This document shows positions 84 through 63,416 of a stretch of 64,000 bases of DNA, one piece after another; within the stretch, counting starts at the first letter, position 1, and every line of letters starts with the position of its first letter. The DNA comes from Robiginitomaculum sp. GTDB taxonomy: Bacteria; Pseudomonadota; Alphaproteobacteria; Caulobacterales; Maricaulaceae. The stretch spans positions 1-64,000 of the forward strand of contig JAJFFP010000037.1 in NCBI GenBank assembly GCA_021776595.1. The letters are read 5' to 3'. The notes under the pieces are model-generated. The model saw only the letters and a list, made by a program, of their open reading frames with translations, searched no databases and was not told the origin of the DNA. The position numbers and the translations under genes were made by a program.

Positions 84-180
84 ACCCGACATCATGCAAC
101 AAAAATAACAAATGTGCAGGTGACAGCCAGATACAACCGGAGGGCGACGAAGGGCAGTGTTTGAAATTTAGAAAGAGCTT

Positions 181-393
181 ATCCCGTGCATAGACCCTCA
201 AGGGCACATCAAGGGACACTCACTACCCCTTAATGACCCTCACGCTATCCCTCAAATACCCCTTAATTGACCCAAAACGCCCTTTTATGGACCCTTAAAT
301 CAGGCTTATTGACCCTTAATGACCCTGTGTTATTTGGGGGTTGCCCGTAATTATCCCCGCCCATGCAAAGCAAGCTATACTGGTGCCATTTAG
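181..393 (+). repeat. Phased CCCT repeat element, copy 1
   Basis: Copy 1 of a 213-bp dispersed element; it aligns without length change to 21231-21443. CCCT-type motifs start at 227, 237, 249, 260, 271 (CCCA), 280, 292, 313 and 323, close to one helical turn apart. The right end (about 350-393) is a module that begins TTATCCCCGC and carries a TATACT/TATAAT-like hexamer. The element sits just downstream of fliE. No protein is encoded in it. Function unknown. Confidence 0.75.
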
Positions 394-433: not shown

Positions 434-745
434 CTAGATCGGCATACGCAAAATGTCCTGATAAGCGCGGATGACCTGATCACGCACGGCGATCACGGTT
501 TCCAGCGTCATTTCGGCTTCATTGACCGCGCCAACCACTTCGATCAGGTCAACCTTGCCAGTGGCCGAACCGATGGCCATTTGTTCTGCCTTGCCGGTAT
601 CCGTGGCGATGGTGCTCATCGCCTCCTTGACCATGGCCCCAAAGTCCACTTTCGCCGTGTCACCCGCTTCTGCGCCGCCGGCCGCTTTGGCCGTATTCAC
701 GGCTTGCCCATAGGCTTTTAAGGCTTGCATGGCGGTGAATGACAT
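434..745 (-). CDS. fliE: Flagellar hook-basal body complex protein FliE
   Basis: FliE joins the MS ring to the proximal rod. The 103-residue product has the usual FliE length and the conserved C-terminal half (around EAEMTLETVIAVRDQVIRAYQ), which forms the helix that packs in the rod. The N-terminal half is Ala/Gly-rich, as is common in alphaproteobacteria. It is the last gene of the minus-strand operon flgB-flgC-fliE, 11 bases after flgC. The fliQ, fliR and flhB genes that often follow are absent; a dispersed repeat follows instead. Confidence 0.95.
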   Translation of the reverse strand: MSFTAMQALKAYGQAVNTAKAAGGAEAGDTAKVDFGAMVKEAMSTIATDTGKAEQMAIGSATGKVDLIEVVGAVNEAEMTLETVIAVRDQVIRAYQDILRMPI

Positions 746-21098: not shown

Positions 21099-21228
21099 CT
21101 TCTCCCATAGTGAGAAGAGTAAGATGAGGGGATGGAGCGCTATAAGGCATATCTTTGCATTTGCGTTTATCAACCCGCAAGCCCCTCACCCCGGCCCTCT
21201 CCCGCTTTCCTTTTGGGGGAGAGAGGAG
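21099..21228. repeat. Inverted pair of CTCTCCC/GGGAGAG hairpin repeats, second locus
   Basis: CTTCTC-N7-GAGAAG (21099-21117) and a second unit with CCCCTCACCCCGGCCCTCTCCC and GGGGGAGAG (about 21182-21228) face each other, as in the msrP-msrQ gap. It directly abuts copy 2 of the phased CCCT repeat. Confidence 0.7.
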
Positions 21229-21230
21229 TT

Positions 21231-21443
21231 ATCCCGTGCATAAACTGACAAGGGGCATTTTGAGGGTCACAACTACCCCTTAATGACCCTCACACTGTCC
21301 CTGAAATGCCCCTAAAGTGACCCTTATCGCCCTTTTATGGACCCTTAAATCAGGCTTATTGACCCTTATTGACCCTGTGTTTTTTGGGGGTTACCCATAA
21401 TTATCCCCGCCTACGCAAAGCCGCGTATAATGGGGCAATTTGA
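21231..21443 (+). repeat. Phased CCCT repeat element, copy 2
   Basis: Same length and order as copy 1. CCCT motifs start at 21277, 21287, 21299, 21310, 21321, 21330, 21342, 21363 and 21373. The 45-base end module (about 21400-21443) has TTATCCCCGC and TATAAT. It lies about 158 bases before the SulP gene. Core identity with copy 1 is high, for example an exact match across GCCCTTTTATGGACCC and its downstream neighbours. Confidence 0.8.
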
Positions 21444-21600: not shown

Positions 21601-23205
21601 ATGAGAGCCTCCCTTGCCGCTTTTGTAGATCATATGTCTGGCACCTATGATAATGCAGATCGTTTCTCCCCTGGCCGCATCAAAATTGAAGTATTAGCGG
21701 GCCTGACCGTTGCCCTGGCTTTGGTTCCAGAAGCGGTTGCCTTCGCTTTTGTCGCCGGAGTACATCCACTGGTCGGGCTTTATGCAGCCTTTCTGGTTGG
21801 TCTGATTACCGCATTGCTTGGTGGACAACCGGGCATGATTTCCGGTGCCACAGGTGCACTGGCCGTGGTTATGGTGGCGCTGGTCGCCGGGCACGGCGTC
21901 GAATACCTCTTTGCTACCGTTGTCTTGATGGGCATTTTGCAAATCCTGGCCGGGGTGTTTCGCCTTGGCAAACTTATCCGTCTGGTGCCGCATCCGGTTA
22001 TGTTGGGCTTTGTCAATGGGTTGGCTATCGTGATATTTCTGGCGCAACTGACACAATTTCAGGTCGGGCCGGAAGGCGACAGGGTCTGGATGAGCGGCCT
22101 GCCACTGGCGATGACGCTTGGGCTGGTGGCGCTGACCATGGGGATCATCTGGCTGATGCCCAAAATCACCAGCGCGATACCGGCCCCGCTGGCTGGCATT
22201 GCTGTCGTTGCCGCCATAGTGATCGGTTTTGGTCTGGATGTGCCGCGCGTCGGTGATTTGGCAAGTATTCAGGGCGGTTTGCCCAGCTTTCATATCCCCA
22301 CAGTGCCGTTCAATCTGCAAACTCTTGAAATCATTTTTCCCTACGCGCTGATACTGGCCGCGATTGGCCTCATAGAGAGCCTGCTGACACTGAACCTTGT
22401 CGGTGAGATTGCCGGCAAGCACAGTGGCGGTGCCTCTCGGGAGTGTATCGCCCAGGGTCTGGCCAATACACTGACCGGCTTTTTTGGCGGCATGGGTGGC
22501 TGCGCCATGATCGGACAATCCATGATCAATGTGAAATCGGGCGGCCGTACGCGGCTCTCTGCCCTTGCCGCCGCATTGTTTTTGTTAGTGTTCATACTGG
22601 TAGCTTCCGGCCTGATTGAACAGATACCCCTCGCGGCACTGGTGGGGGTAATGTTCATGGTGGTCATTGGCACATTTGCCTGGAACAGCCTTCGCATCAT
22701 GCGTAGAATTCCACTGACTGATGCCTTCGTCATTGTTCTGGTTACGATCGTTACAGTGATGTATGATCTGGCCACAGCGGTTGTCGTCGGGGTTATTGTA
22801 TCGGCGCTCGCCTATGCCTGGAACAACGCACGGCGCATCCATGCCACCACCCGCGAAAGCCATAGCGAAGCCGGGGCCAAGGTCTATGAAATCGAAGGAC
22901 CGTTATTTTTTGGCTCCACAGATGGCTTTGCCGAGCTCTTCACCCCGGATCAGGACCCCGATGTGGTCATTGTAGACTTTATGCGCTCTCGTGTGGTTGA
23001 CCAATCCGCGCTGCAGGCCATTGAAGCGCTGGCAGGCCAGTATCAAAAACGCGGGAAAAAACTGCAATTACGTCATTTGTCCCGCGATTGTCACAAACTG
23101 TTAAACCGTGCCGGGCAACTCATGGTTGATTCAAATGATGATCCAGACTATGGCTTGGCGGTGGATTATTCTGTGCGAACCGGAATTCTGGCAGGCGGAC
23201 ATTGA
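21601..23205 (+). CDS. SulP/SLC26-family anion transporter with STAS domain
   Basis: This 534-residue inner-membrane protein has the SulP signature near the N-terminus ([38 protein letters not shown]) and 10-14 hydrophobic helices to about residue 400. A C-terminal STAS domain follows (about 420-525, [43 protein letters not shown]). Family members carry sulfate, bicarbonate or dicarboxylates; the substrate cannot be told here. It is a single gene between a repeat cluster and a cytochrome c gene. Confidence 0.93.
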
Positions 23206-53894: not shown

Positions 53895-54092
53895 CCCCGC
53901 TGTCCTGGTACCTGAGAGATTCACAAAAGCCGCATTATTGCGTCCCTATGCTTACTCCTTCGGTGCGACACTAAATGCCGCTTTCCAGCGTGCCGATCCC
54001 TTCGCGGTCCTTGGTGCCTGAGAGTTTCCGGGGCGGTTGCTCCTTCGGCGCCAGCTTTGTCTTTTGGAGGCTGGACTCTCCCGCGAAGATCG
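53895..54092 (-). promoter_or_regulatory. Tandem glycine riboswitch upstream of gcvT
   Basis: On the minus strand, aptamer 1 starts near CGGGAGAGTC (54085) and has CGCCGAAGGAGCAA and ACTCTCAGGCACC; aptamer 2 has CCGAAGGAGTAAGC and ATCTCTCAGGTACC. These are the paired conserved cores of the gcvT motif. Between the riboswitch and gcvT is a GC-rich hairpin (CCGGCAG-TTTA-CGCCGG-like, near 53871-53891) that may be the expression platform. Glycine binding would switch on the glycine cleavage operon. The rest of 53852-54176 holds no gene. Confidence 0.92.
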
Positions 54093-54176
54093 TTCTGGTC
54101 GGCGCCAAACAAAACGTGCGCTGATGGCGGTGCATTAACACGGGCAATCGGGGGCGGCAATGGCCAGTGTGGGCGA

Positions 54177-62495: not shown

Positions 62496-62525
62496 AGGCA
62501 AATCAATATGACCAAGGATAATATC

Positions 62526-63146
62526 ATGAGCGGTTCCTGCGGCGACAATTGCGATACTTTTGATGGTGCCAGCGCCAGGTATAAGCGTGCCCTTTGGGCC
62601 GTCATCGCCATTAACGGCATCATGTTTGTGGTCGAGATGAGCGCCGGTTTTGCTTCCCAGTCCACGGCGTTGCGCGCCGATGCGCTTGATTTTCTGGGTG
62701 ATACGCTCACCTATATGCTTTCTCTTCTCGTGATTGGCATGAGCCTTCACATCCGCGCCAAAGCCTCCCTTATCAAAGGCATCAGTCTTCTGGCCATGGG
62801 CCTGTTTGTGGCCAGCACCGCCATCTGGCAAATATTTTCCCCCGGATTACCCGAAGCACCGATGATGGGCGGCATTGGATTTTTGGCGCTGATGGCAAAC
62901 CTGCTTAGCGTATTTATCCTGCTGCGCTTCAAAGATGGTGATTCCAATGTGCGCTCGGTCTGGCTGTGCTCACGCAATGATGCCATAGGCAATATCGCAG
63001 TTATGGGCGCAGCCCTGATGGTTGCCCTCACTCAAAGCCATTGGCCTGACTTGATTGTTGCCCTGGCCATGAGCGGCCTGTTTCTTAGCTCCGCCTGGCA
63101 GATCATCAGCCACGCCAGAGCCGAGTTGAAGCCTCAAATTGCATGA
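62526..63146 (+). CDS. CDF-type cation efflux transporter without cytoplasmic domain
   Basis: The 206-residue membrane protein has six helices of the cation diffusion facilitator core and no C-terminal cytoplasmic domain. Metal-site residues are ADALDFLGD in helix 2 (Asp replaces His) and SRNDAIGN in helix 5. The N-terminus has a Cys pair (GSCGDNC). I prefer ATG 62526 with AAGGAT before it, since ATG 62508 would leave only about six leader bases after the predicted transcript start. It is controlled by the divergent MerR regulator, so a toxic metal (Zn, Cd, Co or the like) is the probable substrate. Confidence 0.85.
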   Translation: MSGSCGDNCDTFDGASARYKRALWAVIAINGIMFVVEMSAGFASQSTALRADALDFLGDTLTYMLSLLVIGMSLHIRAKASLIKGISLLAMGLFVASTAIWQIFSPGLPEAPMMGGIGFLALMANLLSVFILLRFKDGDSNVRSVWLCSRNDAIGNIAVMGAALMVALTQSHWPDLIVALAMSGLFLSSAWQIISHARAELKPQIA

Positions 63147-63183
63147 TTATATCAGGCTCCGGCCAACCGGGCAGAACCTAGGT

Positions 63184-63416
63184 TTATCCCCGGTTTCATG
63201 AGGGGTATTATGGGTCAACAAGGCTCATTTATAGGACGATAAAAGGATGATAAGGGACAATTTAGGGACATTTGAGGGACAGCGTGAGGGGTAATAAGGG
63301 GCACCTGTTATCCCTCAAGGGTTAATCCAAAGAATTTTTTATAAATAAGTTTAATGCACCATAGACTTATCCCCGCCCACCAAAACGCGCGTATAATCTC
63401 GCAATTTGGGTTGAGT
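63184..63416. repeat. Phased CCCT repeat element, copy 3 (core inverted)
   Basis: Read on the minus strand, 63190-63315 holds the core with CCCT-type motifs in the same order as copies 1 and 2 (CCCCTTATTACCCCTCACGC, then TGTCCCTCAAATG). The end module at 63367-63416 (TTATCCCCGC, TATAAT, CGCAATTTGGG) is on the plus strand, as in the other copies. So the core is flipped relative to the module. It lies next to the tadC stop, with no gene in 63147-63428. Confidence 0.65.

Follow-up and report, generated by a model that had tools for sequence, protein, structure and literature searches.

The repeated element described here is best read, from its sequence and with a probability of roughly one half, as a dispersed promoter preceded by a head-to-tail array of sites for a putative binding protein, all on one face of the helix. 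It is probably a repeated platform from which this putative protein would switch on or shape a mostly noncoding transcription. The upstream part of the proposed promoter cassette, about 110–150 bp long, consists of about ten directional TGnCCCTTAW sites arranged head-to-tail on one helix face over 10–11 turns, with a sigma70-type -10 (TATAAT) and a poor -35 about 49 bp past the array. A sequence-specific DNA-binding protein may coat or wrap the array, and the firing of the -10 would probably depend on the bound or wrapped state. Judging from the layout, the transcript would be a noncoding or leader RNA, that is, a boxA-bearing RNA in the relative G014 and, in most copies elsewhere, an antisense RNA entering the 3' end of the neighbouring gene, and it may sometimes be the mRNA of the neighbour itself. 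The array, its phase and polarity, the -10 profile, the linkage to boxA and the recurrence beside the same genes have been computed. Strand polarity together with a fixed word points to sequence-specific recognition, the kept phase to a double-helical lattice, and the -10 together with boxA to transcription; from these we infer protein binding, transcription, activation and function.

The element and its copies in the window

The window is the whole stretch of DNA analysed, namely the 64,000 nt at positions 1–64,000 of contig JAJFFP010000037.1 (GCA_021776595.1), from a Robiginitomaculum-like MAG. R1, a sequence-only covariance model made from an alignment of 28 copies of this genome (including the three of the window), marks just three places in the window, and these are exactly the three copies of the original prediction (Table 1), an observation which has been confirmed and proved wider than described, its interpretation as a whole being partly supported.

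Table 1. Coordinates of the parts of the three window copies and of the ORFs beside them
Feature	Position	Strand	Remarks
Copy 1, phased array	179–326	+	TTATCCC start, then CCC-type units every ~10.75 bp; R1 match in the window scan 133.4 bits, E 1.3e-40
Copy 1, end module	351–391	+	TTATCCCCGCC..TATACT..GCCATTT; -10-like hexamer 376–381; pattern match spans 351–381 and is absent from shuffles
Copy 1, neighbour ORF, presumably fliE-like	434–745	-	3' end faces the module; gene-call heuristic
Copy 2, phased array	21229–21376	+	R1 120.8 bits, E 1.1e-36
Copy 2, end module	21401–21442	+	TATAAT 21426–21431; GCAATTTG to 21442
Copy 2, ORF on the 3' side, which we take to be a SulP-type transporter	21601–23205	+	Module faces the gene start here
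Copy 3, left outward -10 module	63135–63151	-	Minus-strand reading TATAATCATGCAATTTG; overlaps ORF 62508–63146 at its stop codon
Copy 3, phased array	63201–63335	-	Inverted with respect to copies 1 and 2; R1 90.9 bits, E 2.5e-27
Copy 3, right outward module	63367–63408	+	TATAAT 63392–63397

The 213-bp stretches of copies 1 and 2 align without gaps at 80% identity, and the predicted C-run steps (10, 12, 11, 11, 9, 12, 21 and 10 bases) are indeed identical in both. The three places stood and their limits had to be corrected, the array of copy 1 starting at 179 and copy 3 running from 63135 to 63408. Copy 3 had been described as inverted in its core, which is right for the array, placed on the minus strand at 63201–63335, and falls short of the element, which is larger and bears outward -10 modules at both ends. 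Its CCCT steps of 21, 10, 12, 11, 11 and 52 suggest that some units have been lost. In a phasing scan of the window (115-bp stretches, both strands, step 5), 28 stretches had at least eight C-runs and a vector strength of at least 0.8, every one of them in copies 1 and 2, copy 3 staying below this bar. The end-module pattern TTATCCCCGCC..TATAMT, with up to three mismatches allowed, gave three matches in the window, all mismatch-free, and none in 100 shuffles; in the whole genome, the 11 perfect TATAATNNNGCAATTTG sites all adjoin arrays. The idea of a single element of 213 bp had to be abandoned, since there is no fixed extent and the array, spacer and end module vary independently among copies. 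The TTATCCC start and the GGGGATAA found 3' of the array look inverted, and the outer ends vary.

Other repeats are associated with the element. In many copies of the genome three further hairpin repeat families (CCCTCCGG..CCGGAGGG, CCCTCACCCC..CTCTCCC and CCCGG..GGGATGACAC) abut the array start (TTATCCC) and form mosaics with it, as at 21180–21228 of the window and at loci L002 and L010. At L016, L018, L019, L021, L026 and L029, and also at L160 and L161 of G003, array and -10 module are separated by an inserted further hairpin repeat (GTGCTATCGC type), which is doubled in some copies.

Distribution across genomes

Searching the genome and its relatives, as the original prediction had proposed, revealed about 40 copies in this genome (G000) and further copies in other genomes of the genus. 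BLAST with copy 1 returned 41 matching pieces in the 2.63 Mb of the genome, and R1 gave 42 matches among those listed. In the genus, 11 of 18 genomes had R1 matches at E<=1e-3, with 3 to 42 each among the matches listed; when completeness of 90% or more and contamination of no more than 5% were required, the array was present in 8 of 11, so that some good genomes are without it. Matches were obtained in 6 of 59 genomes of the family and in 5 of 299 of the order, every one belonging to this genus (1 of 54 genera), although the order-wide scan used stricter filters, scored ten candidates per genome and may have passed over weak matches. Among the relatives of the fliM of the window, the best seven (81–91% identical) are all MAGs labelled Robiginitomaculum, and other fliM relatives with this label are 73–78% identical. 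Membership of a known tRNA-derived or mobile family, which would have gone against the original prediction, was not found: Rfam gave no match in the window copies or in the elements of 16 loci, where tRNAs appeared only elsewhere in the loci, and copy 1 had no match among phage and plasmid records. In the literature searched, nothing describing this element was found.

The quantitative analysis used 128 arrays from R1 matches at E<=1e-3, that is, 39 of 42 in G000, 37 of 38–39 in G010, 19 of 28 in G003, 17 of 29–34 in G002, 9 of 11 in G017 and 7 of 14–20 in G014, the match counts being taken from those listed. The copies found in G004, G005, G006, G007 and G012 are outside this set, and R1 was built from copies of G000, so that copies with other spacings may be under-sampled.

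Helical lattice and repeated word

The unit of the array is a directional TGnCCCTTAW, repeated on a lattice of 10.5–10.75 bp in all six genomes measured, with a small cumulative drift in most; the copies of the relatives were found with the model of the own copies, which favours similar spacing, and the pattern is partly shared by descent. In 6/6 genomes the CCC autocorrelation has maxima near 10.7, 21.5, 32, 43, 54 and 64 bp, and between them it is at or close to zero, least cleanly in G002 and G017. The best period was 10.75 bp in four genomes and 10.5 bp in two (G014 and G017), and in all six the periodic power was 3- to 12-fold above the maximum reached in 100 mononucleotide shuffles. Moreover, the vector strength averaged 0.90 over the 128 arrays, against 0.32 expected. 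In G000 the standard deviation of the n-step distance stays at 0.98–1.17 bp for n=1–8, where a random walk predicts 2.45 at n=6, and in G010 it stays at 0.92–1.32 bp over the same range; in G003, where the correlation between successive steps is +0.24, it climbs from 0.98 and reaches 2.4 at n=8. When the steps of arrays with at least six C-runs (39, 37, 17, 17 and 5 arrays) were permuted, the real mean phasing exceeded that of the permuted arrays in 200/200 trials for G000, G002 and G003, and the phase lock fell inside the permuted range for G010 (0.909, permuted maximum 0.913) and G017 (0.875, maximum 0.891). Measured between C-run centres, the step pattern is unique to one array in 36/39 cases in G000 and 37/37 in G010, and the array lengths of 32 own copies (135–138, 147–149 and 160 bp) differ by steps of about one turn. 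The predicted phasing on one face persists in other species even where the copies have diverged, so that the loss of phasing named in advance as fatal to the prediction was not the outcome.

The array is also strongly polar, with 608 CCC runs versus 48 GGG runs in four relatives. The C-run is followed by T in 89% of units and has G at -5 in 66%, and WW and SS dinucleotides alternate in antiphase (WW from 0.05 to 0.63). One unit of the array consensus has GGC in place of CCC, and no separate 36-bp central break is evident. No clear 10.75 periodicity was seen in the end module, and a consensus fold of the array as RNA contained 5 pairs, not one of which showed changes on both sides. CtrA, whose motif is TTAA-N7-TTAA, was raised as a candidate by the TTAA recurring at about 11 bp and was rejected, the CCC and the next T being the most fixed letters. 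DnaA boxes, which are TTATCC-like words, were considered as another candidate.

End module and boxA units

The end module has a sigma70-type -10 profile. Taking GGGGATA as the only anchor (present in 34 of 82 copies of the relatives) and an offset fixed blind to the -10, the columns 40–45 bases past it read T.88 A.79 T.50 A.62 A.68 T.79 in these 34 copies, which come from four relatives, and a conserved AATTT comes next; the profile resembles the classic -10 weighting. In the own genome the same fixed-offset test gave a weaker profile (T.62 A.69 T.62 A.54 A.85 T.62, 13 copies), and by eye the -35 is poor. Among modules above a set score, the -10 most often lies 48–50 bp past the end of the array, G003 being without a clear mode. 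Distances other than 47–50 bp, which often contain nested insertions, showed no helical phase (n=30 after collapsing repeats, R 0.22, p 0.24). Varied spacings out of helical phase argue against a simple face-dependent activation, and helical coupling of array and -10 was discarded as a supported reading on account of these unphased distances. A simple promoter and terminator scan of a single G014 locus (L148) performed no better than on shuffles.

A second line of evidence comes from G014, where the boxA word GCTCTTTGACA occurs 45 times versus once for the reversed-pattern control, the five other genomes having 4–7 each. Array words, GGGATAA and a -10 lie upstream in 19 of 20 newly fetched G014 boxA sites, the -10 being TATATT in one and TATAAT in the rest; the remaining site sits in a long ORF without any of the three. 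Five G014 loci fetched through R1 have the same array/-10/boxA layout, with an imperfect GGGATAA in one, and two further ones are cut by contig ends. In all, 24 array-linked boxA units were read (L313–L332 and L145–L150), and G014 perhaps holds about 43 (45 words less the rrn one and the one in a gene). Of the seven boxA words of G000, four are placed just past an array, three of these having been read. Together with the -10 column profile, the array-linked units favour a transcript start at the module, one of the options originally put forward, as far as sequence can indicate.

The longest ORF starting near boxA ranges from 19 to 108 codons at differing places in the 24 G014 units, and the RNA therefore looks noncoding. 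Strict terminators were found in 7 of the 24, versus a mononucleotide-shuffle mean of 1.4 and maximum of 4, and RNAalifold gave no conserved structure (0 pairs) for the leaders of 22 of the 24. Leader variants seem to be shuffled between copies, as by gene conversion. The word GCTCTTTGACA also precedes 16S in G014, and the units resemble rRNA leaders and other Nus-factor leaders in carrying it, as that 16S leader does; in the units it lies 3' of a -10. Unlike them, the units are present in many copies, have no rRNA downstream in those read, and have a promoter region that by eye differs from the rrn upstream region. An origin from the rRNA promoter was considered and dropped, the region upstream of the G014 16S having the boxA word and, by eye, no array; 16S was found in 1/6 genomes. 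For comparison, the gamma-proteobacterial boxA is GYTCTTTAANA (PMC5725501).

Genomic position and DNA topology

Genes are called on both sides of 96 of the 128 elements by a codon-usage heuristic trained on the window, and their order is convergent in 45, '--' in 23, '++' in 20 and divergent in 8. Among the adjacent gene pairs of the window, 10 of 62 are convergent (p 2e-12 for the difference, elements at shared places being non-independent and the baseline being one window). The right-hand gene lies on the minus strand, facing the module with its 3' end, in 85 of the 121 copies with a right gene called. In G010 it points toward the module in 16 of the first 20 copies, and 13 of those 16 genes end at most 21 bp from the best -10 match, some matches being weak. 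A promoter firing into the 3' ends of genes is odd, and counts against the promoter reading. Nor does a common regulon emerge, since the ORFs to the right of the copies in G000 resemble, by eye, a mixture of housekeeping genes.

The coincidence of the array period with the published 10.75-bp GC period of E. coli gyrase sites makes a role of gyrase or in topology the main rival, which we consider possible, if unlikely. The array would be a strong wrapping site for gyrase or a cooperating nucleoid protein at the places where positive supercoils collect (gene 3' ends and between convergent genes), as proposed for BIME-2 in E. coli. The E. coli gyrase motif covers 130 bp with nucleosome-like arms of periodic GC at 10.75 bp, BIME-2 has properties of strong gyrase sites, and phased consensus DNA binds gyrase strongly, yet gyrase works slower on it (PMC6379681); positive supercoils are enriched between convergent genes (PMC8360656). 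Like strong gyrase sites, the array alternates between GC and AT with a period of 10.75 bp along some 130 bp, this being its best period in 4/6 genomes, and the antiphase of WW and SS as well as the excess of convergent neighbours are what such a role would lead one to expect. Nevertheless, anisotropic bending needs neither a strong strand polarity nor a CCCT word, and, unlike gyrase sites, the array is a strand-polar CCCTTA repeat with an adjoining -10 module and no separate 36-bp central region evident in its consensus, though one unit reads GGC. In addition, gyrase would leave the -10 profile and the boxA linkage unexplained, and the restriction to one genus is odd for a universal enzyme. 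The two readings can be combined, in that a promoter sensitive to supercoiling would lie next to an array wrapped by gyrase or another protein. If gyrase were the reader, each of the dozens of copies would be an evolved gyrase site with good phasing.

Evolution and possible mobility of the copies

The neighbouring genes recur across genomes. When the proteins flanking the 128 elements were compared, 72 pairs of loci from different genomes shared a gene on the same side and strand, versus 9 pairs in other configurations, chance right-right pairs being estimated at well under one per genome pair (about 35 elements and 2600 genes per genome). Arrays at the same place are on average no more alike than arrays at different places, the clearest exception being those of ruvC, which rank first in 6 of 10 comparisons; the pairs L142–L201 and L153–L184 also rank first. 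Within-genome copy identity is 0.80 in G000, 0.80 in G002, 0.79 in G003 and 0.90 in G014, versus 0.72–0.76 between genomes, and no clear excess is seen in G010 (0.753) and G017 (0.749). We read this as suggesting old positions with sequence turnover or gene conversion, the phase and the word being kept. Arrays are placed directly before ruvC in five genomes (L220, L163, L176, L199 and L159), where they end 6–13 bp before the ORF without a TATAAT module; these are possibly the oldest site or an operator.

The element could also be a non-autonomous mobile repeat, a mosaic of the MITE or BIME kind that has spread through the genus and whose copies are tolerated when they lie behind genes, its phasing and promoter serving its own spread or being relics. 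This is an unlikely account of the whole. The greater likeness of copies within G000, G002, G003 and G014, the lack of extra likeness between same-place copies, the hairpin repeats on the left flanks and the changed orientation of the array relative to the modules in copy 3 are in its favour; however, the 72 shared-neighbour pairs and the retention of phase despite divergence speak for selection, the copies of G010 and G017 are not clearly more alike within their genome, and copy 1 has no phage or plasmid match. BIMEs are built from palindromic REP units. The present element resembles BIME-2/REP of E. coli in being intergenic, behind genes and mosaic with other repeats, and differs in its core, a directional direct-repeat array whose consensus fold has 5 pairs instead of palindromic units. 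BIME-2/REP have been proposed as gyrase sites (PMC6379681), and Correia repeats are described as dispersed, able to make a promoter at either or both ends and able to bind IHF (PMC2649163). The likeness to these repeat enclosed elements of Neisseria lies in the dispersal and in the end promoter, here putative and present at both ends in copy 3, whereas boxA units in one relative and neighbour genes common to species set the present element apart. We know of no ten-turn phase-locked array in Correia repeats.

Termination and operator readings

As RNA, the array would be C-rich and G-poor with C-runs every ~11 nt, and could serve as the rut site of a Rho-dependent terminator for the left-hand gene, a spacing which suits the binding sites of the Rho hexamer. 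The predominance of C over G on one strand, the mere 5 pairs of the consensus fold and the location behind genes agree with this possibility. Nevertheless, it is quite improbable, since a rut site belongs behind the gene that it terminates and 31 of 96 elements have a left gene oriented away from the array, and since a low-drift phase would be expected of a double helix and not of a flexible RNA. Binding of MraZ, or of another ring-forming AbrB-fold protein, to the array as an extended operator is highly improbable, because the three CCC boxes that precede mraZ in G000, G002, G010 and G014 at intervals of about 10 bp, and that share with the array a spacing of about one helical turn, read CCCAT, against some ten CCCT units with T after the C-run in 89%, and are spaced at 10 bp instead of 10.75. 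The MraZ operator consists of TGGGN/NCCCA boxes at 10-bp steps, and the boxes at L306–L309 (three CCCAT, ~10 bp apart, upstream of mraZ) are like it.

Significance

The promoter with an upstream one-face array may, as a tentative proposal, represent a dispersed enhancer of a novel kind, in which tens of like-built, strand-polar arrays, each on one helical face over at least 10 turns, would drive noncoding transcription (boxA RNAs and 3'-end antisense) from positions shared between species and under concerted evolution in several genomes, so that one putative protein could govern both transcription and supercoiling at the ends of many genes at once. To our knowledge, long phase-locked enhancer-like arrays repeated around a bacterial chromosome have no precedent. 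If a dedicated protein coats the arrays, one cis element would link chromosome topology, 3'-end or antisense transcription, and noncoding RNA. Furthermore, the conserved lattice offers a direct handle, by means of half-turn insertions, to separate wrapping from sequence recognition.

As a minor observation on the window, tandem glycine riboswitch aptamers are located at 53896–54093 on the minus strand.
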